A DNA stretch of 64,000 nucleotides, from positions 62,001 to 126,000 of the forward strand of contig NZ_SUTM01000003.1 in the NCBI RefSeq assembly GCF_015062935.1. The letters run 5' to 3'. The position numbers and the translations under genes are program-made. Below, piece after piece: positions 2-62,811 of the stretch (position 1 is the stretch's first letter; each line of letters starts with the position of its first letter). The stretch comes from Methanobrevibacter sp. (GTDB lineage: Archaea; Methanobacteriota; Methanobacteria; Methanobacteriales; Methanobacteriaceae). The notes beneath the pieces are model-generated. The model made no database searches and was not told the DNA's origin. It saw only the letters and a list, made by a program, of their open reading frames with translations.

Positions 2-3000
2 GGAGCTGTTGCAACCTCTCCTAAAGTTATAGCACTCATTGAAGAGTGTATTTTTATAAATAACACTGGAGAAAACAGACATGTTTACAGCAACGGATTT
101 ACCGTGGCTCATGATACTGTTTTTGAAGTTAGCGATGTTAACTTAAAAGCGTCAACTGTTTCATATGGTAATGACTCAATAATCAAAGGTACAGCAGATC
201 CTGGTGTCAATATCTACACATTAGCAAACTTAACCGTTTCTGGTGAAAATGTCACCGCAGAAATTAAAAACAATGCATTTACCTATAATGCAGGTGTATT
301 GAATCATGGAAAACATACCGCTGTTTTAAACAATATTGTAGATATGAACAATAATACCTACTTGATGGACAGCATAAGCATAACTTTCAAAGTTAACCGT
401 ATAGGCATTGAATTAAATGTTTCTGTTGACAATATTACCTATGGTGAAACCCTGAACATCATTGAAACATTGCCTTCCACTGCTTCAGGTAGAATAAGTT
501 ATCAATTGAATGGAAAAGAATACACAAAAGATGAACTCGAATCATTGAAATTAGATGCAGGAAAATATAGCCTAGTAGCTACCTACAATAATGAAGATTA
601 CGCACCTTCATCTTCCACCATCAATTTTGAAGTATATAAAGCCAATCCGACCATTTCTGTAGAGGATGTGGAAGTAGAGGATAATGGTACCGTTATTGTA
701 AACATAAAAACAAATGTTCCATCAATCTATACAATAGAAATTGGAGATTACAAAACTGATAAATATGTTAACGGTAGCAGAGCTGTTGAAATAGATAAAA
801 TATTTGAACCTGGAACCTACACAATCAAAGTCACTTCACAGGAACGTGTAAACTACAAATCAAATTCCACTGAGGCTACTTTGAAAGTCACTAAAAATAT
901 TCCAGTAGTCACATTAAGTGCCTCCAATAAAGTCACATCTCCAAATGAGGCTATTGTCGGTGTTTCAGCTCCGGAAAATGCAGTAGGAAATATCACCTAC
1001 ACAATAACAGATTCAAATAAAAACATTGTTAAAACCCTAACCCAATCCTGCAGAGACGATTTAATCGTTTCCGATTTGGATGACGGAGACTATGAAATCA
1101 ATGCAATATTTGAAGGTGATGATTTATACTATTCAACCAGCAATATCAAAATGGCTCCATTATCCATTATGAGGTCCGCAAGTAATGTAAATATTCTCAG
1201 CGAGGATGAAGATGACTATGATGATGAATATTACTATCCATTCATATACCAGGAAGATGAAGATTCAGATTATGAATATTATGAAACCCTGGAAGAAGCA
1301 ATAGATGCGGCTTCATTAATGGGAGGAATCATTACAGTTAGAGGAGGAACCTATTATTACGAAGATGGAAACGCCGGTATTGATATTGAAGGGGAAGCTG
1401 AAATAACAATCAGAGCTTTTGCAGGCGAAGAGGTTATTTTTGACTGTCAACATGAAAGTGACTTCCTGTATTTAACATATGATACTGAAGTAGAGATAAT
1501 TGAGACAGCTCCACCTATTCCTATTATATATACCACAGAAGGACCTACAATTACACTTGAAAACATTACCGTAATCAACGGATATGCCAACAGTGATGGT
1601 GGAGTTATCGAAATGGATGCAGGTACTTTAACATTGCTGAACTGTAATTTCTACAATAACGAAGCTGAATATGGTGGAGTAATATATATCGGTTCAGTTA
1701 CTTCAGATCAGGATGCAGATGTCATTGCAGTTAACACTACATTTATAAACAATACTGCAAGATCTGAAGGTGGAGCAATCTATATTTCAGAAGGTCTTGA
1801 ACAGTTCGTATCCGCATCATTTTTAGGATGTACATTTTTAGACAACTACCAAGGTGAAGATGATGAGAGAACTATGAATTACTTTGCTGGTGATGCTGCT
1901 GATGAAATAGTTAAGAAAGCTTGTATATTTAACGCTAAGGATACAGTAACTTGGTCAATGGATAAAATCAACCAGACAGTAACTGTTATCGGTACATCTA
2001 CTGATGTCTTCGATTCAATCGTTTTATTGTACTTAGATCATATACCATTATACTCAATTTACAATAACGGTTCTCAAACATTTAATGTCACTTTCGAGGA
2101 TGTAATGGGCGGAAACTACACCATAGGTGTAATGAATGACCATGACTTAAATACATATATCTTTAAAGATGCTTCATTTGAAATGAGAGTGCCAAACTTC
2201 ATCATATCCGCAGATGAGGTATATGAAAACTTAACTGATGCTATTGGCAATGTTACAGATAAGGGTATTATTTATGCAAATGCAAATTATCATATTGATG
2301 AGAATATGGAAATTGACATTACCAAATCTTTCACACTTACCAATTTCAGAGACCGTATGGTTGTTTTCGATGGAAACAGCACAAATTGGTTCTTTACAGT
2401 GGCTGAAGGATGTAATGTTGTAATTGAAAACATTGAGTTTGTTGATGGAGGCATAAAAGATCATGCATCAATTGAAAATTACGGCAGTTTAACACTTAAA
2501 AACTGTACATTCACAGCTTTTGAAACCGAATCAATCATATACAATTCAGGTTCCTTAAATATAATAGACGGTGTATTTTCACTTAATTCCATTAATAATG
2601 CTATTGTTTTAAATGATGGAGAATTATTCATCGACGGAGCTGAATTCTCAAGCAATGTCATAAATACAAATTCTGTTGTGTACAACAATGGAAATGCAGA
2701 AATTGTTGCTTCCAATTTCACAGAAAACATCAATAATGGAAATGGTGGTGCAATATATAACAAAAATTCATTAACCATTAAAGACACAGTTTTCAATGAA
2801 AATGAAGGTATAAATGGCGGAGCTGTTTATAATGAAGGTACATTAGAAGTCTTAAACTCTACTTTTGAAGATAACACTGCAAACGGATATGGCGGTGCAA
2901 TTTTCAATGACGGTGAAGCAAACATAGCTAATTCATCATTTAGCGGAAGTTTCAGTGCAAAAGACGGAGGTGCCATTTACAATAATAATATGCTGATTGT

Positions 3001-6000
3001 GAATAATTCCACATTAGTTGCAAATACCGCAACAGGCAATGGTGGAGCAATCTACAACAACAAAACCTTGAAACTTGCAGAATCCTTCTTTGGAATTAAC
3101 TTCGCTTATGAGCTTGCAAACATTTACAATGCAGGCGATGTTCAAGAATTCGAGAGAAACACATTCGATTTCTATGATGTGATATTGTATGTACCGGATG
3201 GAGAATACGGCATTCCTACAACAATTACAGGCACACTTGATCCACAATTCAACATGGACCTTCAATTAACATTACCTGGATTTGTTAACTATAAAGACGC
3301 TAATGTCACAATTACAGACGGCATATTTGAATATAATACCGGCGTTTTACCAAAAGGCGCTTATGACGTTATATTAAATGAAGTCATTTATGATAAAAAC
3401 GGCAACGTTTATTATGGTGAATCAATTAGAGACAGGCTTATCGTAAATAAGGCGAATGTCTACATCAATCTGACTGTAGATGACCTGATTCTTAAAAATT
3501 CAGATATTGGTACCCCTGTTTTAAAAATCAACGCAAGTAAAAACGGAACATTCCAGCTTCTGTTCAATAATAGGCTTTCAACTTTCACTATTGCTGACAG
3601 TCAAGCTGAAATAACATTGGACAGTGTTGGAGAAGGAAACTACAGCGTAATGGTTGTCCGTGAAGGTGATGAAAACTATAACGATGCAGCAAACGGAACC
3701 ACATTCACTGTAAGCGAATATTTAGGCAATTTCATTGTCAACAGTACTGGTGCAAAATTCGACACATTAAATTTAGCTATTCAATTCTCTAGAAATGAAG
3801 ACATTATTTATGTAATGGAAGGAAATTACTCTGGTCCTGCTAATGTCGGACTGACTATTTCAGGCAAAAAATTAAGCATAATTCCAATAGGTGTTGTTGT
3901 ATTTGATGGAAGCTACACAAATTCAGGATTTTTGACTATTGATGAAAACAGTGATATTACCCTCGAGGATATTGTAATTTCTGGATTTAAAGATAGAGTT
4001 CTTCACAATAAAGGTAATTTGACTGTTGACGAATGTACTTTTGCCAATAACACTTTAGATTTGACAGGAATTATATATAGTGAAAATCCAAGTGGAAATT
4101 TAAAAATTGTTGAATCAGGATTTTATGACAATAAAGTATGTCAAATCATCTATAGTCGATCTAACATTATCATTAATGAAACTATATTTGAAAACAATAC
4201 ACCATTTTTAGTTTCTGGCGACCTGATTGAGATATTCTCAAGCTCTGTGAAAGTTATATCAACTGAATTTGTTGAAAACACATTTAAAGGCGCCGGTATT
4301 TTTCTTAACCGATGTACTGATGTTCACATTAATGCTGAATTTTACAATAACACTCTAGAGCAAGCCATTTTTTCATACTCCCATTACGGCTTAAATATTG
4401 AAAATTCCACATTCACAGGAAATACTTTTGACCATGCAATCTATTCAGAGAATAGCCAGAATACTCAAAATATTAAAGGTTCCACATTCACAGACAATAC
4501 TGTTAGAAATGTTGTTTATAGTGACGACGATAAACTATATGTTATTGGATCCACATTTTCTGCTAACACACTTTCAGGCAATGGTACATTATACCTCATA
4601 ACAAAAGATGTTACCATCGATGACTGTTTGTTTGCAGAGAACAAGGCAGACAACTATAGAAACATCTATAGTAGCTACAATCCGAAAATCTCCAATACAG
4701 TATTTGATGCTATAAACGTTGATTATAATGTTAGTGACATTGACTATGGACATACTGCAAAAATTAATGGTACTATTGACATAGGTACAAACTTCGACTT
4801 CAATGTCAATATAAACATTAACAACAATGTCATTTCAGTCTACGCAGTTGACAATAAATTCGCCTGCAGTTTAAGAGATTTAACAGGTGGAGACTATGAT
4901 GTGGTATTAAATGCACAAAACAGAGATTCAAACACATTTGTATTTAATCAAATAACCAAAACATTCACTGTAAATCGTATAGATCCTGGATTAAAAGTTA
5001 CAATATCCAATATTACTCAGGGTGAAAAATTAGAAGTTAATGCAACACTCATCAATAATGCTACCGATAAGATTCTCTATCAATTGGATGGAAAATGGTA
5101 TAACAAGACTCAGCTTGAAAATCTCACATTGACCCATGGTAACTATTTAGTTGCAGCATCATATGGTGGAAATAAAAACTACTATCCAGTTGGTATACCA
5201 ATTTATGTGGAAGTTGACAAAATCACTCCAAAAATAACTGTAAGTGATGTTGAAGTTGACTATGGTGAAGATATTAAAATTGATGTATCTGCTGATATTG
5301 CGGATTATTATACTGTATTTATAGACAATGGTTACAATGAATCAGTTTCATTATACGTTGATAATAATGCAATATTTACATTCTCAAGTGCAAACTTCAA
5401 ACCTGGTAGATATGAAATCAAAGTTTATAAATTTGAAACTGATGATTATAATGAAGCATTTGCCTATGCTAATTTAACAGTTAATAAAGCTAAAGGATTC
5501 TTCAATTTATCAAAAGATTTAATTACAGAGGGTGAAAATGCAACCATTAATGTGACAGTTCCGGTCAATGCATATGGAAACATTACATACAAGGTATATG
5601 ACAGCAATATGAATGTGGTTTACAATATCACACAATCCTGTCTGGAAAATCTTGTTGTTCCTGATTTGGCTGCTGGACAATATATTGTCACAGGTACTTA
5701 TGAAGGTGATGATTACTACACTGCTAACTCAATAGTCAATTCTAGCTTCATCTTCGTCAGAGGAATTGTAGATGTAAACATTACTGTATCCAATACAACT
5801 TATGGAGAAGATGTCACTGTTACTATTAACAGTAAAGTTGATGGTGACTATCTTGTTTATGTTGGAACTGAAAAGATGGTGGTTACTGTTATAAACGGTA
5901 CTGGAAATGTGTCTGTTTCTAATTTAACTGTTGGAAGTTATGCTGCTAATGTTACTATTGTTGATGGTAAATATTCAGCATTTAACGAAACAGTATTTAA

Positions 6001-9000
6001 CGTGACTCCTAAATCCGTTTCAGTTATTGTTTCTGTTGAAGATATTTTCTATGATGAGGATGCTGTTGTTTTCGTTTATGGTGAAGTTGACGGCGAATAC
6101 ATTGTAAGAGTATATGATCAGAATTACACTGTAAATGTTGTTGATGGTACCGGAAATATTACCCTTTATGATTTGGGTCTTGATAAAGATATTTTAGTTT
6201 CTGTAACAATTGTTAACGGTAACTACACTGCATATAATACCACAACATTTAACGTAAATAAATTCAGTACTCCAATTGAATTGGATGTCGCAACTGGAGA
6301 AAACAATGTGACAATGACTGTTACTGTTAATGATGCAGCAACCGGTCTTGTCAAATTCCAAGTAACTGGTCCAGAAGAATACACTCTCTATGTCGATGTA
6401 ATTGATGGTAAAGCAGTTCTTGAAGATATTCTTGAAACTGGTGATTATACAGTAATCGCAACCTATATGGGTGATTACAGACTTAATACTAACATCACTT
6501 ATGAGGATTTCACTATCAGAGGTCACATTAAGAAGGATACTCCTATTTCTGCTAGTGCTGAAGTGGTCGGATACAGAGTTACAGTGACTGTGAATGTTGA
6601 TGAAAATGCTACTGGATTTGTACGGTTAGCTGTTGGTGGTACTGTTGCTAATATTGAAGTAGTTGATGGTGTTGCAAAATTAACTACTAATTTACTTCCA
6701 AATAGTTACTTTGTTGATGTAACTTATCTTGGTGATGATGACTTCAATATGAACAGTACTAGTGTGTCATTTACTGTAACAGAAATTTCCAAGGAAAATA
6801 CCACTATCGATCTTAACATTATTGCTGGTGAAGACACTGCTTTAATTATAGTTGATTTGAATAAATCTGCAACTGGTTTGGTAAAATTCTATATGGTAGG
6901 TAAAGAAACCGGTGAAGAATATACTATGTACATGGACGTTATAGACGGTCATGTAGAAACATTTACCAACAGCATCGAACCTGGAAACTACACCGTAGTT
7001 GCAACATACATGGGTGATTCAGTATTCAACACCAACACTACATCCAAAGACGTTGAAATCCTCGGACACATAATGAAGGACACTCCAATTGATGTAACTG
7101 TTGAAACCAATGCAAATAGAGTCACATTAACTGTTAAAGTTGATGAAAACGCTACAGGATTTGTTGAGGTCAAATCTGGTCTCAGCGTATCCAATATTGC
7201 ATTAGAAAATGGTGAATCTACATTAACAATCACATTGCCTTACGGAAGCTACACATTAGATGTAACTTACCTCGGTGATGACAACTACAATAAAAACTCC
7301 ACCAAAGCAGAATTCACACTTGTAGAACCTGCTAAGGAAAATACTCCAATTTCATTAGACGTTGTGACTGATGAAAACAATGTAGAAATGACCATTAATG
7401 TTGATGAAGCTGCAACCGGCCTTGTCAAATTCCAAGTAACTGGTCCAGAAGAATACACACTCTATGCTGATGTTGTTAATGGTAAAGCGGTTCTTGAAGA
7501 TATTCTTGAAACTGGTGATTACAGAGTAATTGCAACATACATGGGAGACAGCAGGTTCAACACCAATATTACTTCTGAAGAGTTCACTATTGCAGGCCAT
7601 ATTAAAAAGGACACTCCTATTTCTGCTAGTGCTGATGTGACTGGTAACAGAGTTAAATTAACTGTTAAAGTTGATGAAAACGCTACAGGATTTGTAAAAT
7701 TGACTGTCGGTGGTACTGTTACTAATATTGAAGTGGATAATGGTATCGCAACATTAACAACTACCCTGGTGCCGGGCAGTTACTATGTTGATGTAACCTA
7801 TCTTGGTGATGATGACTACAATATGAACAAAACCTCTGTGACATTCACCATAGTTGAGGCTTCCAAGAAAAACACTCCTATTAATCTTGACATCGATGTT
7901 TATGAAGATGCTGCATTGGTTATGGTTGATGTGGATAAATCTGCAACAGGACTGGTTAAATTCTATATGGTAGGTAAAGAAACCGGTGAAGAATATACTA
8001 TGTACATGGACATTATAGACGGTCATGTAGAAACATTTACCAACAGCATCGAACCTGGAAACTACACCGTAGTTGCAACATACATAGGAGATTCAGTATT
8101 CAACACCAACACCACATCCAAAGACGTTGAAATCCTCGGACACGTAATGAAAGATACTCCAATCGACGTAGAAGTTGAAACCAATGCAAACAGAGTTACA
8201 TTAACTGTTAAAGTTAATGAAAACGCTACAGGATTTGTTGAAGTCAAATCTGGTCTCAGCGTATCCAATATTGCATTAGAAAATGGTGAATCTACATTAA
8301 CAATCACATTGCCTTACGGAAGCTACACATTAGATGTAACTTACCTCGGTGATGACAACTACAATAAAAACTCCACCAAAGCAGAATTCACACTTGTAGA
8401 ACCTGCTAAGGAAAATACTCCAATTTCATTAGACGTTGTGACTGAAGAAAACAGTGCGGTAATGACCGTTAATGTTGATGAAGCTGCAACCGGCCTTGTC
8501 AAATTCCAAGTAACCGGTGAAAAAGAATACACACTCTATGTCGATGTAATTGAGGGTCAAGCAGTTCTTGAAGATATTCTTGATACCGGCGATTACACAG
8601 TAGTTGCAACATATATGGGAGACAGCAGGTTCAACACCAATATTACTTCTGAAGAGTTCACTATCGTAGGCCACATTAAGAAGGATACTCCAATCACAGC
8701 ATCTGCTGTTGTGAATGGTAACAGGGTTACATTGACTGTAAACGTTGATGAAAACGCTACCGGATTTGTAAAAGTAACTGTTGGAAGTACTGTTACTAAT
8801 ATTGAAGTAGTTGACGGAACCGCAACACTAACAACTGTCTTGGTGCCAAACAGTTACTTTGTAGATGTAACTTACCTTGGTGATGACAACTACAATATGA
8901 ACAAAACCTCTGTGACATTCACTATAACAGATATTGCCAAGAAAAACACCCATATTGATCTTAACATTGATGTTTATGAAGATGCTGCATTGGTTATGGT

Positions 9001-12000
9001 TGATATAAACGAATCTGCAACAGGACTGGTTAAATTCTATATGGTAGGTAAAGAAACCGGTGAAGAATATACAATGTACATGGATGTTATAGACGGCCAT
9101 GTGGAAACCTTTACCAACAGCATCGAACCTGGAAACTACACCGTAGTTGCAACATACATGGGAGACTCAGTATTCAACACCAACACCACATCCAAAGACG
9201 TTGAAATCCTCGGACATCTCATGAAAGATACTCCAATCGATGTAGCCGTAGAAACCAATGCAAACAGAGTCACATTAACTGTTAAAGTTAATGAAAACGC
9301 TACAGGATTTGTTGAAGTCAAATCTGGCGTAAGCGTATCCAATATCGCATTGGAAAACGGCGAATCCACATTAACAATCACATTGCCTTACGGAAGCTAC
9401 ACATTGGACGTAACTTACCTCGGTGATGACAACTACAATAAAAACTCCACCAAAGCAGAATTCACACTTGTAGAACCTGCTAAGGAAAATACTCCAATTT
9501 CATTAGACGTTGTGAGTGAAGAAAACAATGTAGTAATGACAGTTACAGTAAATGAAGCTGCAACCGGCCTTATCAAATTCCAAGTAACCGGCGAAGAAGA
9601 ATACACTCTCTATGCCGATGTTGTCAATGGTGAAGCGGTTCTTGAAGATATTCTTGAAACCGGCGATTACACAGTAATTGCAACATACATGGGAGACAGC
9701 AGATTCAACACCAATATTACATCTCAAGAATTCACTATCGCAGGCCACATTAAGAAGGATACTCCAATCACAGCATCTGCTGTTGTGAATGGTAACAGAG
9801 TTACATTAACTGTAAATGTTGATGAAAACGCTACAGGATTTGTAAAACTAACTGTTGGAGGAACTGTTACCAATATTGAAGTACAAGATGGTGTCGCAAC
9901 ACTAACAACCGTATTGGTACCAAACAGTTACTTTGTAGATGTAACTTACCTTGGTGATGACAACTACAATATGAACAAAACCTCCGTGACATTCACTATA
10001 ACTGATGTCGCCAAGAAAAACACCAATATTGATCTTAACATTGATGTTTATGAAGACACCGCTCTGGTTATGGTTGATTTAAATAAAGCCGCAACCGGAC
10101 TGGTTAAATTCTATATGGTAGGTAAAGAAACCGGTGAAGAATATACTATGTACATGGACATTATAGACGGTCATGTGGAAACCTTTACCAACAGCATCGA
10201 ACCTGGAAACTACACCGTAGTTGCAACATACATGGGAGACTCAGTATTCAACACCAACACCACATCCAAAGACGTTGAAATCCTCGGACATCTCATGAAA
10301 GACACTCCAATCGACGTAGAAGTTGAAACCAATGAAAACAGAGTTACATTAACTGTTAAAGTTAATGAAAACGCTACAGGATTTGTTGAAGTCAAATCTG
10401 GCGTAAGCGTATCCAATATTGCATTAGAAAATGGTGAAGCTACATTAACAATCACCTTGCCTTACGGAAGCTACGCATTAGATGTAACTTACCTTGGTGA
10501 TGCAAACTACAATAAAAACTCCACCAAAGCAGAATTCACACTTGTAGAACCTGCTAAGGAAAACACTACAATTTCATTAGATATTGATACTGTAGAAAAC
10601 AATGTGACTATGACTGTTACTGTTGATGATACTGCAACCGGCCTTGTCAAATTCCAGATAACTGGTCCAGAAGAATACACTCTCTATGCAGATGTAATTA
10701 ACGGTAAAGCAGTTCTTGAATATGTTCTTTTAACTGGTGATTACACTGTAGTTGCAACATATATGGGAGATGACTGGTATAATACCAACATTACTTCTGA
10801 AGATTTCACTATCGTAGGCCATATTAAGAAGGACACTCCTATTTCTGCCCGTGCTGATGTGAGTGGAAACAGGGTTACATTGACTGTGAACGTTGATCAA
10901 AACGCTACAGGATTTGTAAAACTAACTGTTGGTGGTACTGTTACTAATATTGAAGTACAAGATGGTGTCGCAAAGCTAACAACTGTACTGGTACCAAACA
11001 GTTACTTTGTTGATGTAACTTACCTTGGTGATAACAACTACAATATGAACAGAACCTCTGTGACATTCACTATAACAGATATTACCAAGCAAAATACCGA
11101 TATTGATCTTAATATTGATGTTTATGAAGACACCGCTTTGGTTATGGTTGATATAAACGAATCTGCAACAGGACTGGTTAAATTGTATATGGTAGGTAAA
11201 GAAACCGGTGAAGAATATACAATGTACATGGACATTATAGACGGCCATGTGGAAACCTTTACCAACAGCATCGAACCTGGAAACTACACCGTAGTTGCAA
11301 CATACATGGGAGACTCAGTATTCAACACCAACACTACATCCAAAGACGTTGAAATCCTCGGACATGTAAAGAAAGATACACCAATCACAGCAGATGTTGT
11401 TGTTGATGGCAATAACGTGATGATTACAGTTACTGTTAATGAAAATGCTACAGGATTTGTTAAATTCACAACAAGTGGTAGCGACATATTTGCTGAAGTC
11501 AAAGATGGTAAAGCTATTGTAACTACTGTTCTTCCAGCCGGAAACTACACAGTCGTTGCAGCATACCTCGGTGATGAAGACTTTAATGGTAATGAAACTG
11601 TAATTTCATTTAGCGTAGCGGAGGGTGAAGAAACTGTTGTAAACATTACCGTTCCAAAAGACCTCAAGGAAGGAGATAATGCAACCGTTAAAGTTGAAAT
11701 CCCTGGTGCTACAGGAAACGTTACTGTTATTGTTGACGGAAAAGAAACTGTTATTGAACTGGTTAACGGCAGTGCTGAAGTTCCTATCAGCAATGTTTCT
11801 GGTGGTGAACACGATGTTGTTGTAATTTACTCAGGTGATGATAAACACGCTTCTGCTTATCAAGCATCTACATTTAATGTTGCTAAAAAACCTGAAAAAC
11901 GAGGTACTGAAATTTTAGCCAAAGACTTCACACAATATGCTTGCGAATACTATGAAGGCGAAAGAGGCAGAAATTTCACTTTCCAATTGGTTGATTTAAA

Positions 12001-12499
12001 CGGAACCTCACTTGCAAACAAAACAATCTACATCGGTTATAATGGAGTAATATTAAACAGAACAACTGATGCAAACGGTTATGCAAGTGTCCAGATTAAT
12101 CTGAAAAACGCAGGCCTCTACACATTTGTACTTGTATTCTTGGATGATGATAATTACAATGCATCTTTGGCTGTACAAAAAATAACCATTAACAAGAAAA
12201 CTACTTCAATAACTGCAAGTGCAAAAACATTTAAGGCAACTGCAAAAACCAAAAAATACACAGTGACTTTAAAAACCATCAAAGGAGCATCCATTGATGG
12301 AAAAACTTACTTGAAAGCAGGTAAAAAAGTCACATTGGTTATTAATGGAAGAATATACACTGCAAAAACCAATTCTAAAGGAAAAGCAACATTCAACATT
12401 AAATTGACCAAAAAAGGTATATTCACAGCTAAAATATCATTTGCTGGCGATGTAACCTACAAATCAACAACCAAAAAAGTAAAAATAACAATTAAATAG
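2..12499 (+). CDS. Giant adhesin-like protein (ALP), 5' end outside window
   Basis: The frame is open from base 2 with no stop, so at least 4165 residues are visible and the real start lies upstream; the GTG at 104 is only the first possible start in view. The protein is a secreted-type surface adhesin of the kind common in Methanobrevibacter. In order it shows Ig-like domains (to about 1170), a very acidic Asp/Glu/Tyr linker (about 1196-1300), right-handed beta-helix repeats with GGAIYN-like motifs (about 1270-3130 and 3720-4690) alternating with Ig-like segments, then a long Ig-like array (6269-11626). The end is a module with a DFTQYACEYY motif and a Lys/Thr-rich C-terminal domain ending in KVKITIK. 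NxT/NxS sequons are abundant. No C-terminal membrane anchor or LPXTG-like signal is seen. Function as host, protist or bacterial cell adhesin is inferred from the family. Confidence 0.9.
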   Translation, partial: GAVATSPKVIALIEECIFINNTGENRHVYSNGFTVAHDTVFEVSDVNLKASTVSYGNDSIIKGTADPGVNIYTLANLTVSGENVTAEIKNNAFTYNAGVLNHGKHTAVLNNIVDMNNNTYLMDSISITFKVNRIGIELNVSVDNITYGETLNIIETLPSTASGRISYQLNGKEYTKDELESLKLDAGKYSLVATYNNEDYAPSSSTINFEVYKANPTISVEDVEVEDNGTVIVNIKTNVPSIYTIEIGDYKTDKYVNGSRAVEIDKIFEPGTYTIKVTSQERVNYKSNSTEATLKVTKNIPVVTLSASNKVTSPNEAIVGVSAPENAVGNITYTITDSNKNIVKTLTQSCRDDLIVSDLDDGDYEINAIFEGDDLYYSTSNIKMAPLSIMRSASNVNILSEDEDDYDDEYYYPFIYQEDEDSDYEYYETLEEAIDAASLMGGIITVRGGTYYYEDGNAGIDIEGEAEITIRAFAGEEVIFDCQHESDFLYLTYDTEVEIIETAPPIPIIYTTEGPTITLENITVINGYANSDGGVIEMDAGTLTLLNCNFYNNEAEYGGVIYIGSVTSDQDADVIAVNTTFINNTARSEGGAIYISEGLEQFVSASFLGCTFLDNYQGEDDERTMNYFAGDAADEIVKKACIFNAKDTVTWSMDKINQTVTVIGTSTDVFDSIVLLYLDHIPLYSIYNNGSQTFNVTFEDVMGGNYTIGVMNDHDLNTYIFKDASFEMRVPNFIISADEVYENLTDAIGNVTDKGIIYANANYHIDENMEIDITKSFTLTNFRDRMVVFDGNSTNWFFTVAEGCNVVIENIEFVDGGIKDHASIENYGSLTLKNCTFTAFETESIIYNSGSLNIIDGVFSLNSINNAIVLNDGELFIDGAEFSSNVINTNSVVYNNGNAEIVASNFTENINNGNGGAIYNKNSLTIKDTVFNENEGINGGAVYNEGTLEVLNSTFEDNTANGYGGAIFNDGEANIANSSFSGSFSAKDGGAIYNNNMLIVNNSTLVANTATGNGGAIYNNKTLKLAESFFGINFAYELANIYNAGDVQEFERNTFDFYDVILYVPDGEYGIPTTITGTLDPQFNMDLQLTLPGFVNYKDANVTITDGIFEYNTGVLPKGAYDVILNEVIYDKNGNVYYGESIRDRLIVNKANVYINLTVDDLILKNSDIGTPVLKINASKNGTFQLLFNNRLSTFTIADSQAEITLDSVGEGNYSVMVVREGDENYNDAANGTTFTVSEYLGNFIVNSTGAKFDTLNLAIQFSRNEDIIYVMEGNYSGPANVGLTISGKKLSIIPIGVVVFDGSYTNSGFLTIDENSDITLEDIVISGFKDRVLHNKGNLTVDECTFANNTLDLTGIIYSENPSGNLKIVESGFYDNKVCQIIYSRSNIIINETIFENNTPFLVSGDLIEIFSSSVKVISTEFVENTFKGAGIFLNRCTDVHINAEFYNNTLEQAIFSYSHYGLNIENSTFTGNTFDHAIYSENSQNTQNIKGSTFTDNTVRNVVYSDDDKLYVIGSTFSANTLSGNGTLYLITKDVTIDDCLFAENKADNYRNIYSSYNPKISNTVFDAINVDYNVSDIDYGHTAKINGTIDIGTNFDFNVNININNNVISVYAVDNKFACSLRDLTGGDYDVVLNAQNRDSNTFVFNQITKTFTVNRIDPGLKVTISNITQGEKLEVNATLINNATDKILYQLDGKWYNKTQLENLTLTHGNYLVAASYGGNKNYYPVGIPIYVEVDKITPKITVSDVEVDYGEDIKIDVSADIADYYTVFIDNGYNESVSLYVDNNAIFTFSSANFKPGRYEIKVYKFETDDYNEAFAYANLTVNKAKGFFNLSKDLITEGENATINVTVPVNAYGNITYKVYDSNMNVVYNITQSCLENLVVPDLAAGQYIVTGTYEGDDYYTANSIVNSSFIFVRGIVDVNITVSNTTYGEDVTVTINSKVDGDYLVYVGTEKMVVTVINGTGNVSVSNLTVGSYAANVTIVDGKYSAFNETVFNVTPKSVSVIVSVEDIFYDEDAVVFVYGEVDGEYIVRVYDQNYTVNVVDGTGNITLYDLGLDKDILVSVTIVNGNYTAYNTTTFNVNKFSTPIELDVATGENNVTMTVTVNDAATGLVKFQVTGPEEYTLYVDVIDGKAVLEDILETGDYTVIATYMGDYRLNTNITYEDFTIRGHIKKDTPISASAEVVGYRVTVTVNVDENATGFVRLAVGGTVANIEVVDGVAKLTTNLLPNSYFVDVTYLGDDDFNMNSTSVSFTVTEISKENTTIDLNIIAGEDTALIIVDLNKSATGLVKFYMVGKETGEEYTMYMDVIDGHVETFTNSIEPGNYTVVATYMGDSVFNTNTTSKDVEILGHIMKDTPIDVTVETNANRVTLTVKVDENATGFVEVKSGLSVSNIALENGESTLTITLPYGSYTLDVTYLGDDNYNKNSTKAEFTLVEPAKENTPISLDVVTDENNVEMTINVDEAATGLVKFQVTGPEEYTLYADVVNGKAVLEDILETGDYRVIATYMGDSRFNTNITSEEFTIAGHIKKDTPISASADVTGNRVKLTVKVDENATGFVKLTVGGTVTNIEVDNGIATLTTTLVPGSYYVDVTYLGDDDYNMNKTSVTFTIVEASKKNTPINLDIDVYEDAALVMVDVDKSATGLVKFYMVGKETGEEYTMYMDIIDGHVETFTNSIEPGNYTVVATYIGDSVFNTNTTSKDVEILGHVMKDTPIDVEVETNANRVTLTVKVNENATGFVEVKSGLSVSNIALENGESTLTITLPYGSYTLDVTYLGDDNYNKNSTKAEFTLVEPAKENTPISLDVVTEENSAVMTVNVDEAATGLVKFQVTGEKEYTLYVDVIEGQAVLEDILDTGDYTVVATYMGDSRFNTNITSEEFTIVGHIKKDTPITASAVVNGNRVTLTVNVDENATGFVKVTVGSTVTNIEVVDGTATLTTVLVPNSYFVDVTYLGDDNYNMNKTSVTFTITDIAKKNTHIDLNIDVYEDAALVMVDINESATGLVKFYMVGKETGEEYTMYMDVIDGHVETFTNSIEPGNYTVVATYMGDSVFNTNTTSKDVEILGHLMKDTPIDVAVETNANRVTLTVKVNENATGFVEVKSGVSVSNIALENGESTLTITLPYGSYTLDVTYLGDDNYNKNSTKAEFTLVEPAKENTPISLDVVSEENNVVMTVTVNEAATGLIKFQVTGEEEYTLYADVVNGEAVLEDILETGDYTVIATYMGDSRFNTNITSQEFTIAGHIKKDTPITASAVVNGNRVTLTVNVDENATGFVKLTVGGTVTNIEVQDGVATLTTVLVPNSYFVDVTYLGDDNYNMNKTSVTFTITDVAKKNTNIDLNIDVYEDTALVMVDLNKAATGLVKFYMVGKETGEEYTMYMDIIDGHVETFTNSIEPGNYTVVATYMGDSVFNTNTTSKDVEILGHLMKDTPIDVEVETNENRVTLTVKVNENATGFVEVKSGVSVSNIALENGEATLTITLPYGSYALDVTYLGDANYNKNSTKAEFTLVEPAKENTTISLDIDTVENNVTMTVTVDDTATGLVKFQITGPEEYTLYADVINGKAVLEYVLLTGDYTVVATYMGDDWYNTNITSEDFTIVGHIKKDTPISARADVSGNRVTLTVNVDQNATGFVKLTVGGTVTNIEVQDGVAKLTTVLVPNSYFVDVTYLGDNNYNMNRTSVTFTITDITKQNTDIDLNIDVYEDTALVMVDINESATGLVKLYMVGKETGEEYTMYMDIIDGHVETFTNSIEPGNYTVVATYMGDSVFNTNTTSKDVEILGHVKKDTPITADVVVDGNNVMITVTVNENATGFVKFTTSGSDIFAEVKDGKAIVTTVLPAGNYTVVAAYLGDEDFNGNETVISFSVAEGEETVVNITVPKDLKEGDNATVKVEIPGATGNVTVIVDGKETVIELVNGSAEVPISNVSGGEHDVVVIYSGDDKHASAYQASTFNVAKKPEKRGTEILAKDFTQYACEYYEGERGRNFTFQLVDLNGTSLANKTIYIGYNGVILNRTTDANGYASVQINLKNAGLYTFVLVFLDDDNYNASLAVQKITINKKTTSITASAKTFKATAKTKKYTVTLKTIKGASIDGKTYLKAGKKVTLVINGRIYTAKTNSKGKATFNIKLTKKGIFTAKISFAGDVTYKSTTKKVKITIK
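6269..11377 (+). repeat. 1074-bp in-frame tandem array of four-Ig-domain modules
   Basis: Within the giant ALP a 358-residue module of four Ig-like domains repeats with an exact period of 1074 bp. Units begin at 6269, 7343, 8417, 9491 and 10565. In the first unit the domains start at 6269, 6539, 6800 and 7082 (90, 87, 94 and 87 residues). The fifth unit has the first three domains; its fourth (11378-11626) is a diverged version. The third domain carries the KETGEEYTMYMD motif and is almost unchanged at DNA level between copies. No insertion or deletion separates the copies, which suggests recent amplification or ongoing gene conversion. Confidence 0.95.
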
Positions 12500-12531
12500 A
12501 AGAGATCACTTTCTCTTCTAACTTTTTTTTT
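12498..12531 (+). terminator. Hairpin and T-run after giant ALP
   Basis: AGAAGAGA (12498-12505) pairs with TCTCTTCT (12512-12519), followed by nine T residues from 12523. The left arm overlaps the TAG stop codon. The second ALP gene ends with the same two arms. Confidence 0.75.
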
Positions 12532-12703
12532 AAGATTTATTTTTTGAATTAGTAATATTTAATCTGATTTTTTAAATTTCACCGGGTTTTCGGCCCAATA
12601 ATAATATACATATATATTGCTTCGTTGATAAATATTGTATTGTATATTTGATTTAATTTAATTTTATTGAAATGGAGTTATTATTTTTCATTAAAATTGA
12701 ACA

Positions 12704-12755
12704 TTATAAATATCTAGCATGTAAAATCATGTTTTTTTTTTCATAATATGGAGAT
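12704..12755 (+). promoter_or_regulatory. Promoter and ribosome binding site of second ALP
   Basis: A TATA-like TTATAAATAT lies at 12704-12713 and a Shine-Dalgarno GGAGAT at 12750-12755, five bases before the ATG at 12761. The 260-bp gap upstream (12500-12760) is otherwise AT-rich with no gene; a small GC-richer patch near 12581-12597 has no clear role. Confidence 0.55.
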
Positions 12756-12760
12756 TTAAT

Positions 12761-15700
12761 ATGAAGGTTAAAAAAACAATAATCTTGCTGACGCTTGTCG
12801 TTTTTCTCGTAAGCCTTGCAAATGTATATGCAGGTGAAATGGATGATGCACTGGCAAGTGAAGATGCAAGTCAAATCGAGGTGTCCTCAACAGTCGAGGA
12901 TAACCTCCAGGCAAGCGAAGAAAATGCTATAGTGGAACAAACAGGTAATCACTATGCAGATAAACTTTCAAGCTCAGGGGAATTTGATGAGCTTCAAAAA
13001 TTAATTGATAATGCTTCAGACAATGGCATAATCAATCTTGAGCATAATTACACCTACGCAGTAGGTACAGACACTATAACTGAGGGAATAAGTATAAGCA
13101 AGAACTTAACAATCAACGGTAACGGATTTGCAATAGACGCACAGGGCAAATCAAGGATCTTCAATATTGACGGCGGCACAAATGTGCTTTTAAACAATAT
13201 CATATTCACAAACGGATTCACTGAGGGCAACGGTGGAGCAATACTTGCATACGGTAACGTGAATATTGCCAGGTCCAGTTTCATCAACAACACTGCCGTT
13301 GACGGTGGAGCAGTTGAGAGTTTCAACGCTAAAATGACTATTTCAGAGTCATACTTCACCTCCAACAATGCAACAGAGTATGGTGGGGCAATCTATAACT
13401 TCAATAGTGACGTTGAGCTGAGTGATTTATATTTTGAAGACAACTATGCAACACAGTACGGTGGAGCAATATATAATTTCCGTGGAAATGTCAATGTTAC
13501 ACAATCACAGTTCACCCGCAATGCTGCCGGCAGTAAGGGCGGTGCAGTCTTAAATTCCTTTGGCAGTGTAAACATTGCTGATGCAAACTTCAGCGAAAAC
13601 ACTGCAGCTGAAGGTGGTGCAGTTTACTTCGCTAGTGCGGATAATGTGACAAATTGTAATTTTATTAATAACACTGCAGGTAAATCCGGCGGAGCAGTAT
13701 ATGTTGATGAGGTTTACAATGCTTCTAAAATCGACTCAACATTCATTGACAACCATGCAAATAACGGTGGAGCAATATACTTCAACGGAGGAATAAGCAA
13801 TGTCACAATCGGCGGAATTTATATAGGCAATGTTGCTCAAAGAGGCGGAGGTGCGATATTTGTGCGTGGAAAATCCATGAACAACAATTTCACTGCTGAT
13901 TTTATAGCTAATGAAGCAAGAGCTGCCAGCGGAGGAGCAATATTCATTTATAATCAGGCTGACAACAACACATTTGAAGGCAGTTACTGGGACAATTACG
14001 CTATCTACGGTGGAGCAATCTTTTTCTACAACAAGGCAAACAGTAATGTGTTTAACAGCGAATTTACAAATAACACTGCTAAATCCTGCGGTGGTGCAAT
14101 CTTTTTCTACAACACTACTGATGGAAATAACTTTACAGGTGATTTTACTGCTAACAATGCTTTAGGTGAGGTTGATGAGAGTGTTGGAAACGGTGGTGCA
14201 ATAACATTTAAGGACACTTCATCCAACAGCATATTCACATGTGACTTTATAAACAACACTGCTAATTTGAACGGCGGGGGCGTAAACTATCGCCAAACTC
14301 CATACAACATTACATTCAACAGCAATTTCATAAACAACACTTCCCCTAGAGGCGGAGGAGTTAATTTCTTCGAAACATTTGAAAATGTAATATTCAATGG
14401 TGATTTCATTGGAAACTCCGCAGTCAAAGGTGGTGCAATCGCTGCTGTTGACGGTATTATTGACTGTGTTATATTCAGCGATAACCGTGCTGAAGAAGGT
14501 GGTGCAGTTTACATTAACGGTACCGGTCAAGTGTCAGACTGTATTTTCACCAACAATACTGCAACTGATGAGTATAGTGGTGGAGGTGCCGTCTACATCG
14601 GTTCAGGTAAGGTGACTAACAGCATTTTCATATCCAACAGGGCAACCAGTGCCGGCAGTCTTGGAGGCGCAGTATTAATTAAAAATTCAGCTAATGTGAC
14701 TGGCTGCAGCTTTGAAGATAACTTCGCAGGCTTTGGCGGAGCTGTCGCAGATGAATTTAATGTTAATGTGAATAATTGTGATTTCACAGCTAACCGAGCA
14801 TCAGTTGAGGGCGGTGCTCTCTATATGGGTTCAGGTAATATTGTAAATTCCAATTTCGCCAACAACAATGCAAGTGATGAGGATAGTGAAGGTGACGGTG
14901 GTGCTGTTTACGTTGACCGCAATGTTACTGTGGTAAATTGTAATTTCACAGGCAATAAAGCTTATAGGGGTTCTGCAATTTACTTCTGGGTTATTGGGGA
15001 TTTCAAATACGTCAGGTCCATTTCCCATTCTACTTTCCTGAACAATAGGGCAAGTATTGATTCTTTATCTCCATTTACTTTAACAGTCAATGAAAATAAT
15101 ATTGAAATCGCTTTTGAGGGTTACGACAACCTTTTAAATGCAATACTGTCCAGAAAGATGAGTGATGTCAACATCACAAACGTTACCTACTGGGGAGCTA
15201 ATGGTGTTGAAAACACAGGGGATGCCACCATTGTGCCTGCCATGTTATATACTGAAGCAGGTCAGAACGTCACAGTTTCAGGTCTTGTTAACTGTGAGCC
15301 TCTAAATCTCAGTGCAGTTACAAATGGGGAAGGCAAAATTGTTTTAAATATTAGCGCAGAGGATAATTATTTCCTCACTGTTCGCCACGACGCAGATTCA
15401 TACTACTCTGAAGGTGAAAAAACATTCACAAACATAGCTTTCAATGTGAATGTTGTCTCTCAGACAACCTCAAACAGGACTGTTAACCTTACTGCAGAAT
15501 CCAATATTTTAAGTGAAGTCATGCCTGGTAACTTGGTATTTATATTGCCGAACGGCACTCAGATTAATGCGACTTACGGCGGTAACGGTACCTGGTGGGC
15601 AATGCATACATTCGATGAATGTGCGGTTTACAAAGTCAATGCAAGCTATGTCGGACTGGACAATGTAGCTGTTAGGAATGCGACTGTTACTGTTTTAAAA

Positions 15701-16555
15701 GCACTTTCTAAATTTTCAGATGTTGTCGTAATGGGTGGTAATGTTACACTGACTTTGTGTGATGAGAACGGAAATCCGATTTCAGGCACAAATATTACAT
15801 ATGCTATAGACGGCGTTTCAAATGCTACTGTCAGTGACGATAACGGATCATTTGTTATTGTTGCAGCTTCCGGAGCTGAAATATTTGTCGATTATGCAGG
15901 CAGTGATGATTATGTCGGGTCTAATATTACAATTAAATTGACTACTCCTCAAAGACAGTCTACAGTTATTGTAGGAGAAGACTTTACACAGTACGCCTGT
16001 GACTATTATGTCGGTGAGAGAGGTAAAAACTTCACAGTACAGCTTACAGATGTGGATGGTAATCCTCTATCAAATAAAACAGTTTATATCGGCTATAACG
16101 GCGTGACCTTAAACAGAACAACCGATGCAAACGGTTTTGCAAATGTTCAGATTAACCTCAAAAACGCAGGTCTTTACACATTTGTTGTTGTATTTTTAGA
16201 TGATAATGACTACAACGCATCCATGAAAGTATTTAAAGTAACTATCAACAAGAAACCTACTTCAATTTCTGCAAGTGCAAAGACTTTCAAGGTCAGTGCA
16301 AAAACCAAAAAATACACAGTTACTTTAAAAACCATTAAAGGAGCATCCATTGATGGTAAAACATACCTTGCATCAGGTAAAAAAGTAACTTTAAAAGTCA
16401 ACGGCAAAACCTATACTGCAAAAACAAATGCCAAAGGTCAGGCAACATTCAGCATTAAAATAACCAAAAAAGGCAAATTCACAGCAGTAATCAAGTATGC
16501 TGGTGACAATACATACAAATCAGCATCCAAAAAAGTTAAAATAACAATCAAATAG
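12761..16555 (+). CDS. Secreted adhesin-like protein with beta-helix repeats
   Basis: This 1264-residue protein starts with a clear signal peptide (Lys-rich start, hydrophobic core about residues 7-20, likely cleavage after the VYA near residue 24). Residues about 75-750 are Pmp-like right-handed beta-helix repeats built on GGAIYN/GGAVY and FxxNxA motifs. Ig-like domains follow, then the DFTQYACDYY module and the Lys/Thr-rich C-terminal domain ending KVKITIK, both shared closely with the giant ALP upstream. It is exported through Sec and probably held at the pseudomurein surface, but no transmembrane anchor is visible. It has its own promoter and terminator, so it need not be co-transcribed with its neighbour. 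Its ligand is unknown. Confidence 0.92.
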   Translation: MKVKKTIILLTLVVFLVSLANVYAGEMDDALASEDASQIEVSSTVEDNLQASEENAIVEQTGNHYADKLSSSGEFDELQKLIDNASDNGIINLEHNYTYAVGTDTITEGISISKNLTINGNGFAIDAQGKSRIFNIDGGTNVLLNNIIFTNGFTEGNGGAILAYGNVNIARSSFINNTAVDGGAVESFNAKMTISESYFTSNNATEYGGAIYNFNSDVELSDLYFEDNYATQYGGAIYNFRGNVNVTQSQFTRNAAGSKGGAVLNSFGSVNIADANFSENTAAEGGAVYFASADNVTNCNFINNTAGKSGGAVYVDEVYNASKIDSTFIDNHANNGGAIYFNGGISNVTIGGIYIGNVAQRGGGAIFVRGKSMNNNFTADFIANEARAASGGAIFIYNQADNNTFEGSYWDNYAIYGGAIFFYNKANSNVFNSEFTNNTAKSCGGAIFFYNTTDGNNFTGDFTANNALGEVDESVGNGGAITFKDTSSNSIFTCDFINNTANLNGGGVNYRQTPYNITFNSNFINNTSPRGGGVNFFETFENVIFNGDFIGNSAVKGGAIAAVDGIIDCVIFSDNRAEEGGAVYINGTGQVSDCIFTNNTATDEYSGGGAVYIGSGKVTNSIFISNRATSAGSLGGAVLIKNSANVTGCSFEDNFAGFGGAVADEFNVNVNNCDFTANRASVEGGALYMGSGNIVNSNFANNNASDEDSEGDGGAVYVDRNVTVVNCNFTGNKAYRGSAIYFWVIGDFKYVRSISHSTFLNNRASIDSLSPFTLTVNENNIEIAFEGYDNLLNAILSRKMSDVNITNVTYWGANGVENTGDATIVPAMLYTEAGQNVTVSGLVNCEPLNLSAVTNGEGKIVLNISAEDNYFLTVRHDADSYYSEGEKTFTNIAFNVNVVSQTTSNRTVNLTAESNILSEVMPGNLVFILPNGTQINATYGGNGTWWAMHTFDECAVYKVNASYVGLDNVAVRNATVTVLKALSKFSDVVVMGGNVTLTLCDENGNPISGTNITYAIDGVSNATVSDDNGSFVIVAASGAEIFVDYAGSDDYVGSNITIKLTTPQRQSTVIVGEDFTQYACDYYVGERGKNFTVQLTDVDGNPLSNKTVYIGYNGVTLNRTTDANGFANVQINLKNAGLYTFVVVFLDDNDYNASMKVFKVTINKKPTSISASAKTFKVSAKTKKYTVTLKTIKGASIDGKTYLASGKKVTLKVNGKTYTAKTNAKGQATFSIKITKKGKFTAVIKYAGDNTYKSASKKVKITIK

Positions 16556-60987: not shown

Positions 60988-62811
60988 TTATTGGAAATTA
61001 ATCCTTCTTGAGATATTTTTTGGTAAAGGTAATTTTCTGAAAGGTTTACCTTCACATTTTTCATTGATTTCAGCTATTAACTCATCGACTGTCATGTCAA
61101 CCTTTTCACCAGTTTCACGTACGGTTACTTGGAATTTACCGGATTCAGCTTCTTTATCACCGACAACGAAGATGTATGGAATCCATTCTTGGGATGCATT
61201 TCTGATTTTTTTACCTACACTTTCATCCCTGTCATCGACATCCACACGGATGTTTGAAGCGTTGATTTTTTGATATAATTCTTCTGCAAATTCCTCATGT
61301 GCCTCTCCGACAGTAATAATTCTAGCCTGAATAGGACTTAACCAGGTTGGTAACATTGGAGCCCTTTCATTGATTTCAATAGCTGTTTTTTCAAGCATTG
61401 CGCATAAAACCCTTTCAATACTTCCGGTTGGTGAAGTGTGCAGGATTGTAGGATTGTGCTGTTTGCCGTCTTCTCCCAAGTAAGTAATGTCAAATCTTTT
61501 ACCACTTTCAACATCTATTTGAACTGTAGGGTTTTCAATTGGACGTCCTAATGCGTCAATGTTTGCTAAATCTATTTTACATACCCAGTAATGGTGTCTT
61601 TCAGGTAAAATTTCTAAAAGAATTGGTTTGTTGAATTTACGGGCAATTTCATACATCCATTGTTCATTTTCATCGAAGAAGTCTTGGGTTGCTCTGAAAA
61701 TTACTTCGAAATCTAAATTCAAGTCCACACCGGTTTGCATACACATGTCGGTTTGCTGGGAAAACTCATCCAAGGATGAAGGTACATCAGTACAGAATGA
61801 GTGGCAATCAGGCATGGTGAATGCTCTTAATCTTTTAAGACCAACAACTTCACCTTTTTTCTCATAACGGAAACTGTATCTGGTTAATTCGAAAATTTTA
61901 GCAGGGAAGTTTTTCCAGGTCAAGTAGGAATCGGACATTAATCTGAATGCGCCGAAACAAGCTGCAAATCTAAGCATTAAATTCTTTTTGGTGTCGGTTC
62001 TGTATTGTCTTTCACCGAATTTGTAAGCGTGCTCGTAAATTGCCTGGTTGTCCAAATCATAGAAGATTGGAGTTTCTACAGGCATTGCTCCACGCTCAAC
62101 AGTTAAGTCATAAACATAATCCGCAAGCAAATCTCTGATTAATTTTCCTTTAGGATACCATCTTAGGTTTCCGACATCAGATGCAGGTTCATAGTCACAG
62201 ATTTCCTTTTCTCTCATTATTTTAACGTGAGGAGGTTCGCCTTCATCAGATGCTCCACGACCAAGTTCATAATCAACCAATTGCTTGAATGCATGATTAT
62301 CAAAATCAAAGTCATCAATTTCAGTAATTTTGTCTCCTTCAAGAATTTGCCATTTGGAAGGTTTCCTTTCTACTTTTACTTCTTCCTTATCGGCAGTGAT
62401 TGTTCTTGAAAGTTCACTTAATGGGTGACCTTTACAGGAAATTTCAAATGCCTTATACCATCCGAAAGGTACCCTTTTAACATTTAAGTTTTCAGCTAAA
62501 AGTGCTTCTTCTGTATCTTTTAAGATTTGGATAGCAACTTTTGGAGATCCTAATGAAGAAGATAAGTGAGCATAAGGATATAATACGATATTTTCTGCTT
62601 TAACTTGTTCATTAGTTTTTATAACTTCGCTAACTAAGTTCTTAACGATACCTTCTGGATTATCTTCATCTTCTTTTTCAACACTTGTAAATACTACTAA
62701 AGAATCATCAAAGGAACCTTCATGTAAAGCTTCATCGATTTCTTCAGCTACAGGTGTTTTATTTTTTACATTATAATTTAAATAATCAGAATGGATTAAT
62801 AAAATTCTCAT
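60988..62811 (-). CDS. thrS: Threonyl-tRNA synthetase, archaeal type
   Basis: The 607-residue class II enzyme has the archaeal DTD-like editing domain (about 1-140, starting [14 protein letters not shown]), a catalytic domain with [26 protein letters not shown] and [17 protein letters not shown], and an anticodon-binding end ([22 protein letters not shown]). GGTGGT lies just before the ATG. It diverges from the amidase gene across 164 bp. Confidence 0.97.

Follow-up and report, generated by a model that had tools for sequence, protein, structure and literature searches.

A four-domain unit of Ig-like repeats in a giant adhesin-like protein of Methanobrevibacter, with signs of recombination within and between species

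What is the unit of repetition in the giant surface protein of a methanogen, and what keeps its copies alike? The question is raised by a 64,000-nt stretch of DNA from Methanobrevibacter sp. (positions 62,001–126,000 of contig NZ_SUTM01000003.1, assembly GCF_015062935.1; hereafter the window), part of a 2.50-Mb draft genome of 44 contigs. Into this stretch runs the open frame of a giant adhesin-like protein (ALP), which is 5369 aa in full and begins about 3.6 kb to the left of the window start. The frame contains an array of 4.75 copies of an exact 1074-bp (358-aa) unit with the domain order A B A′ B′ (6263–11371), closed by a terminal domain, T. We consider it probable that this array is the stalk of the putatively secreted ALP and that it has been shaped by recombination of the four-domain unit, or quartet, both within and between species. 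Genomes are identified by number below (G000 is that of the window), and one genome per species was compared.

An earlier note on this DNA, made from the letters alone, had described an exact 1074-nt spacing from position 6269, and an offset scan of window positions 3001–16000 (offsets 100–2999) confirms the spacing; 6269 marks the same array in a phase 6 nt later than the domain boundaries used here, which place the A domains at 6263, 7337, 8411, 9485, and 10559. Any 300-nt stretch above 60% identity was obtained at 8 of the 2900 offsets, with a best identity of 0.97 at offsets 1074 and 2148 and of 0.67–0.71 at the half-unit offsets (531, 543, and either of these plus 1074 or 2148). The array is missing from the list of Tandem Repeats Finder, whose longest period is 500, so that a 1074-bp period lies out of its reach.

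Each unit comprises four Big_3_5 (PF16640) domains of 90, 87, 94, and 87 aa. The note had called them four different Ig-like domains; four such domains are indeed present, but they form two related pairs. Between domains of the G000 array, mean amino acid identity at lags 1, 2, 3, and 4 is 0.35, 0.52, 0.36, and 0.84, and the corresponding values in the other four complete arrays are 0.35–0.36, 0.52–0.55, 0.35–0.36, and 0.73–0.77; neighbouring domains in all five are 0.24–0.46 identical. The higher identity at lag 2 than at lags 1 and 3, with the highest at lag 4, indicates that the unit derives from a pair by duplication and divergence; it is a dimer of dimers, in which A is related to A′ and B to B′. 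Amplification of the quartet as a single unit, as the note had proposed, is upheld by the lag-4 value of 0.84 against 0.35–0.52 at shorter lags, and by the four complete arrays outside G000, in which the domain order is kept and the spacing nearly so. An array of A-B pairs is also known, from a second gene of G060 (lag-2 identity 0.70, neighbours 0.38). The five unit starts claimed earlier correspond to five A domains at 1074-nt spacing, but the fourth domain of the last unit is T, not B′. We rejected the candidate explanation that T is a decayed B′, as it is 0.78 identical in amino acids to the last array domain of G055 versus 0.40–0.41 to B′1–4.

The units of the G000 array resemble one another most closely in their second half. 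Units 1–4 are 0.84–0.92 identical over 1074 nt, and unit 5 is 0.82–0.88 identical to the others over its first 813 nt. By domain, DNA identity is 0.88–0.95 for A′ (units 1–5) and 0.92–0.96 for B′ (units 1–4), against 0.79–0.90 for A and 0.76–0.92 for B; the strong homogeneity reported for the third and fourth domains is thus borne out, but over whole units it is moderate. In amino acids, unit 2 is 84, 88, and 89% identical to units 1, 3, and 4, and 72% identical to unit 5 with T. Synonymous divergence (dS) between units is 0.10–0.33 for B′1–4, 0.15–0.46 for A′, 0.21–0.87 for A, and 0.26–0.83 for B, from which it follows that the array is not a fresh expansion; the ratio of nonsynonymous to synonymous divergence (dN/dS) between units is 0.05–0.45, T being left out. 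The earlier expectation that units would differ less at synonymous sites than unrelated domains do holds for A against A′ within one unit, where dS runs from 1.74 to beyond measure (at least 1.7, above every unit-to-unit value), but not throughout for B against B′ (units 1–4, again leaving out T), where the range of 0.63–1.28 overlaps the highest unit-to-unit values of B (0.83). Runs of identical sites are clustered and longer than in shuffled alignments (global p 0.0005), the pairs 1-2 and 2-3 being strongest by longest run.

Relatives of the array were matched at E 1e-30 in 17 of 67 genomes of the genus and 17 of 138 of the family (1 of 17 genera); every one of the 10 relatives with a name is a Methanobrevibacter record, and three come from goat gut samples. 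Among viral contigs, one stretch matched a pattern and none codes for a relative. Complete quartet arrays have five units in G000, G012, and G060 and four in G054 and G014, with the last unit incomplete or altered; in the last quartet of G054, domains of other types occupy the third and fourth places. The array begins at aa 3247–3311 in G000, G054, G014, G059, G011, G028, G037, G015, and G003; in G012, G060, and G050 the frame is truncated at its 5′ end where the stretch or contig stops, and the frame that holds the array start in G040 begins late in the gene. To judge from these sequences, the quartet is older than the window's species.

Homogenisation within arrays was approached through trees of 37 A-B and 29 A′-B′ pairs, from which rows shorter than 70 aa or with the best domain model out of place had been dropped; the loci G003 C27, G060 C18, G055, G000 C18, G046, G028 C30, G053, and two short open reading frames (ORFs) of G037 were left out before counting. 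For dS, rows G054_u4 (A-B), G000_u5 and G012_u5 (A′-B′), and G040_u1 (whose contig starts inside the array) were also dropped, the last of these shifting the medians by no more than 0.01. In the A′-B′ tree, clades by array are formed by units 1–3 of G054 (99/99), units 1–2 of G059 (99/99), and units 1–2 of G037 (100/99). The A-B tree joins first units across species, in the clades G014+G028+G060+G011 (100/100) and G000+G054+G040+G012 (99/93). For A′-B′ the median dS rises from 0.24 where two later units of a species are paired (11 pairs), through 0.45 where a first unit is paired with a later one (16 pairs), to 0.60–0.63 between species, a within-versus-between contrast with a shuffle p of 0.0005 when the relatedness of rows is ignored. 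For A-B the medians are 0.41 (23 pairs), 0.59 (23 pairs), and 0.54–0.60, respectively. Together with the counts of nearest rows given below, these medians indicate that the A′-B′ halves are on average more alike within arrays and the A-B halves hardly so, and homogenisation within arrays is partly supported.

Sequence also seems to have passed the boundaries of species, as far as dS can tell. Core dS, from two genes (leuS and thrS), is 0.49 between G000 and G055 (partial genes in G055), 0.88 between G000 and G054, and 1.01 between G000 and G012. Over aa 751–2400 of the ALP, sliding dS is 0.04–0.14 to G054 and 0.02–0.22 to G012, and on its contigs in G054 and G012 the ALP adjoins genes with dS of 1.49–1.94, which argues against mis-binning of those contigs. 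Single units are likewise common to species: unit 2 of G012 and unit 2 of G014 have dS of 0.07 in A′-B′ and 0.15 in A-B, and unit 3 of G012 and unit 4 of G060 have dS of 0.17 in A′-B′. By core dS the closest species is G055. Its pre-array region is orthologous (dS 0.12–0.43 in 21 of 22 windows and 1.01 in the last), as are T beyond the array (0.78 in amino acids, dS 0.55) and the following 82 aa (0.79, dS 0.40). The interval between these flanks, however, is filled by another four-domain unit, 1059 bp long and present as two copies and one further domain, with an identity of 0.80 at lag 4 and of 0.42–0.45 at lags 1–3; A B A′ B′ is the commoner array type among relatives. These comparisons suggest that gene segments and arrays have been swapped or replaced between species. 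As a separate observation, G015 and G003 share about 3000 aa of ALP at dS 0.00–0.09 in 19 of 22 windows and 0.23–0.30 in the other three, with a core dS of 1.77; the contigs are short, so that mis-binning is possible there, and the sharing could reflect either this or recent transfer.

On the reading that we favour, an ancestral A-B pair of Ig-like domains would have been duplicated and have diverged to give the quartet A B A′ B′, which would then have served as a unit of homologous recombination. Unequal exchange would gain or lose whole 1074-bp (358-aa) blocks, and gene conversion would even out the units within an array, chiefly in their A′-B′ half; the first A-B pair, at the edge, would mostly escape conversion and stay orthologous across species. 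Recombination would also act between species of the genus, shuffling gene segments. The product would be a rod of 20 β-sandwich domains, setting the distance of the N-terminal β-helix region from the cell. We infer unequal crossing-over and conversion as the causes, and presume a rod over the full length of the array with reach or adhesion as its probable function.

A number of points weigh against this reading. Only three of the nine arrays with two or more rows form an A′-B′ clade; the five A′-B′ pairs of G000 are mixed with G012_u1 and G040_u1, and in G014, G060, and G011 the first pairs fall together according to position (100/99). Just 12 of 24 A′-B′ and 8 of 33 A-B pairs have their nearest row by dS in the same species. 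Gene conversion, as proposed in the earlier note, accordingly finds support in the lower A′-B′ dS within arrays and in the clustered identical runs, but not in the few clades and low nearest-row counts, and the run test supposes even rates along the unit, yet the A-B half diverges faster. The copy-number variation that the earlier note thought likely can be judged here between species, with one genome each, where unit number ranges from 4 to 5 only; in most other matching genomes the array stops at a contig end or N run, and the remaining loci listed include different genes. The two core genes are partly truncated in G055 and G037, the G012 genome is rated 8% contaminated, and the angles between domains in the structural model described below are unreliable.

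Could the units instead belong to an old quartet array that purifying selection on the protein has kept alike, with little recombination between them? The dN/dS values, the nearly constant number of 4–5 units, and the many units that resemble a unit of another species more closely than any in their own array would agree with this. Selection at the protein level does not lower dS, however, and A′-B′ dS within G000 or G054 is 0.18–0.39, against a lowest value of 0.53 and a median of 0.79 between them; an exact repeat of 203 bp is also present, and we regard this account as quite unlikely. An artefact of assembly, with units collapsed or multiplied, is very improbable: the draft has 44 contigs and arrays elsewhere often end at contig ends, but all units differ from one another, exact repeats reach at most 203 bp, and the frame is open over 5369 aa on a contig of 164 kb, although the exact count could still be off.

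The alternative to which we give most room, though we think it the weaker account, is that the array was imported whole from another species and is now diverging, not having been amplified in the present lineage. The dS of 0.13 between the first A-B pairs of G000 and G054 (core 0.88), the different array between orthologous flanks in the nearest species, and the identity of A4 with a G040 unit at synonymous sites all point this way. Single units aside, the internal units match no one donor, and the A′-B′ pairs of G000 are far from those of G054 (median 0.79). Import and later homogenisation are compatible with each other, and recombination of the quartet within and between species remains the reading that we prefer.

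In a profile search, Big_3_5 matched 21 stretches of the ALP (E 1.4e-169; 551.6 bits versus a cut-off of 35.5), and the pre-array region gave a weak match to Beta_helix PF13229 (E 2.4e-5; 24.5 bits, below the cut-off of 25.9). The N-terminus, judged by eye, looks like a signal peptide; no cell anchor was identified in the ALP, whose C-terminal tail was not compared with the M1-C domain. AlphaFold2 models unit 2 as four seven-stranded β-sandwich domains with a mean pLDDT of 85.6, by which the domains are well supported, but with a pTM of 0.37, by which the angles between them are not. A search of solved structures by sequence gave no match at E 0.01. The 50 Foldseek matches listed, of 258 at E 0.001, are general Ig/FN3-type multi-domain chains (TMq 0.19–0.35), and 6xi3, a tandem repeat of a large adhesion protein, is among them. 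At about 4 nm per domain, 20 domains would span about 80 nm and one unit about 16 nm.

The architecture is reminiscent of the ALPs of Methanobrevibacter and Methanosphaera, giant surface proteins with a β-helix and Ig-like Big domains, in which Pfam assigns some archaeal Big domain (ABD) repeats to Big3 (PF16640), as in the present array (PMC11532034, PMC2812497). In the excerpts of these papers that we consulted, repeats are given per single domain with an average similarity, and higher-order units, homogenisation, and exchange between species are not described. A longer reach of ALPs has been proposed as the effect of ABD repeats (PMC11532034, in excerpt), and the array would by analogy with this family act as a stalk. 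Periscope Proteins of bacteria also carry long tandem repeats of high DNA identity in a surface stalk, and homologous recombination has been proposed to vary their length; neither text contains the word archaea (PMC8201768, PMC9704523). In the examples given in the excerpts, the repeated element is a single domain, or in SasG the E-G5 pair, and adjacent copies are nearly identical, whereas the present unit has four domains. Of the marks of this class, repeats longer than 50 residues at 80% identity or above are found here (unit 2 against units 1, 3, and 4), and highly similar adjacent domains are not (0.24–0.46 in the five arrays); for a repeat number that varies between strains, the comparison reaches the level of species, with 4 or 5 units. 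The nearest known working is, by analogy, that of a Periscope-type stalk, here with a higher-order unit. The super-repeats of titin show the same higher-order pattern in a eukaryotic muscle protein: Ig-type domains form higher-order units in which neighbours are unlike and domains of the same phase alike. A literature search on recombination of adhesin-like repeats in Methanobrevibacter turned up just a synthetic-biology review, and among the matches listed for higher-order repeats or concerted evolution of adhesins, judged by title and opening of the abstract, none concerned methanogens; neither result proves absence from print. In archaea, the array exemplifies a higher-order repeat within the stalk of a surface protein, and it shows signs of adhesin-gene recombination both inside methanogen species and across them. 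It has been proposed that ALPs could open a route to vaccines against rumen methanogens (PMC2812497, in excerpt), and domains shared or swapped between species bear on the choice of target.

Periscope Proteins are said to break a rule of less than 50% identity between neighbours (PMC8201768, in excerpt), which the present array obeys, yet it keeps DNA homology at the level of the unit. In titin, low identity between neighbours has been linked with shorter-lived misfolds (PMC4660218, in excerpt). It is conceivable, though we would call it unlikely, that the quartet splits two demands, with 1074 bp of DNA homology allowing changes of stalk length and swaps between species and neighbours less than 50% identical giving fewer swapped misfolds, and that units of four domains evolved two or more times at one site of the gene (A B A′ B′ and the quartet of G055). 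Single-domain arrays with neighbours 0.90–0.93 identical occur in the same genus and show that the neighbour rule is not obligatory in it, and the quartet may have come about as a side effect of nested duplication. A genus that holds both unlike-neighbour quartet arrays and near-identical single-domain arrays provides a natural test of the rule.

A survey of other ALPs of the genus covered 65 ORFs of at least 600 aa (30 in 16 loci of G000, 20 in 12 of G004, and 15 in 8 of G008), the loci being chosen through matches to the array query or among the Big_3_5 matches listed rather than from whole genomes. DNA-homogeneous tandem repeats, some of them checked as Big-type domains, also occur in other ALPs of the genus, with units whose lengths correspond to one (82–89 aa), two (168–179 aa), or three (256–268 aa) domains in G000, G004, G008, G060, and G003. 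The ALP at G000 C18, with a frame of 3432 aa, carries a two-domain repeat of 516 bp in which identity is 0.41 between neighbours and 0.77 at lag 2. In G008, L117 and L118 carry 264-bp single-domain repeats with neighbours 0.90 and 0.93 identical on average, overlaid by a 792-bp three-domain period, and a genus-wide avoidance of identical neighbours is not upheld.

Table 1. Segments of the ALP gene inside the window
Feature	Positions	Strand	Basis or remark
Pre-array region, in-window part (aa ~1205–3291)	2–6262	+	ORF; open frame
Low-dS segment, in-window part (aa ~751–2400; resolution 150 aa)	2–3589	+	Sliding dS versus G054, G012
Unit 1 (A1 6263–6532, B1 6533–6793, A′1 6794–7075, B′1 7076–7336)	6263–7336	+	
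Unit 2 (A2, B2, A′2, B′2)	7337–8410	+	
Unit 3 (A3, B3, A′3, B′3)	8411–9484	+	
Unit 4 (A4, B4, A′4, B′4)	9485–10558	+	
Unit 5, three domains (A5, B5, A′5)	10559–11371	+	
Terminal domain T, at the place of the fifth B′	11372–11632	+	Amino acid identity to G055
C-terminal region after the array (288 aa) and stop	11633–12499	+	First 82 aa 0.79 identical to G055
Longest exact repeat, 203 bp, B′1 into A2; second copy from 8243	7169–7371	+	

Upstream of the ALP gene and divergent from it, about 3.8–5 kb to the left of the window start, are two genes for TetR-type regulators (PF00440). The nearer was found in 10 and the farther in 9 of 12 genomes searched; the stretch searched extends only 0.6 kb upstream in G028 and 0.2 kb in G059, and in G003 it stops short of the farther gene. 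Their dS between species is 0.08–0.64, below most of the two-gene core values. For eleven ORFs of G000 lying still further upstream, the stretches fetched from other species gave no match over 70% of the ORF length. The regulators and the adhesin may travel as one module. Directly after the ALP gene (window 12761–16555) is a second, shorter ALP-like gene of 1264 aa with Chlam_PMP repeats (1.4e-28) and CarboxypepD_reg, in which the matches to Big_3_5 and Big_1 are below their cut-offs. The pseudomurein gene pMurD1 is also inside the window.

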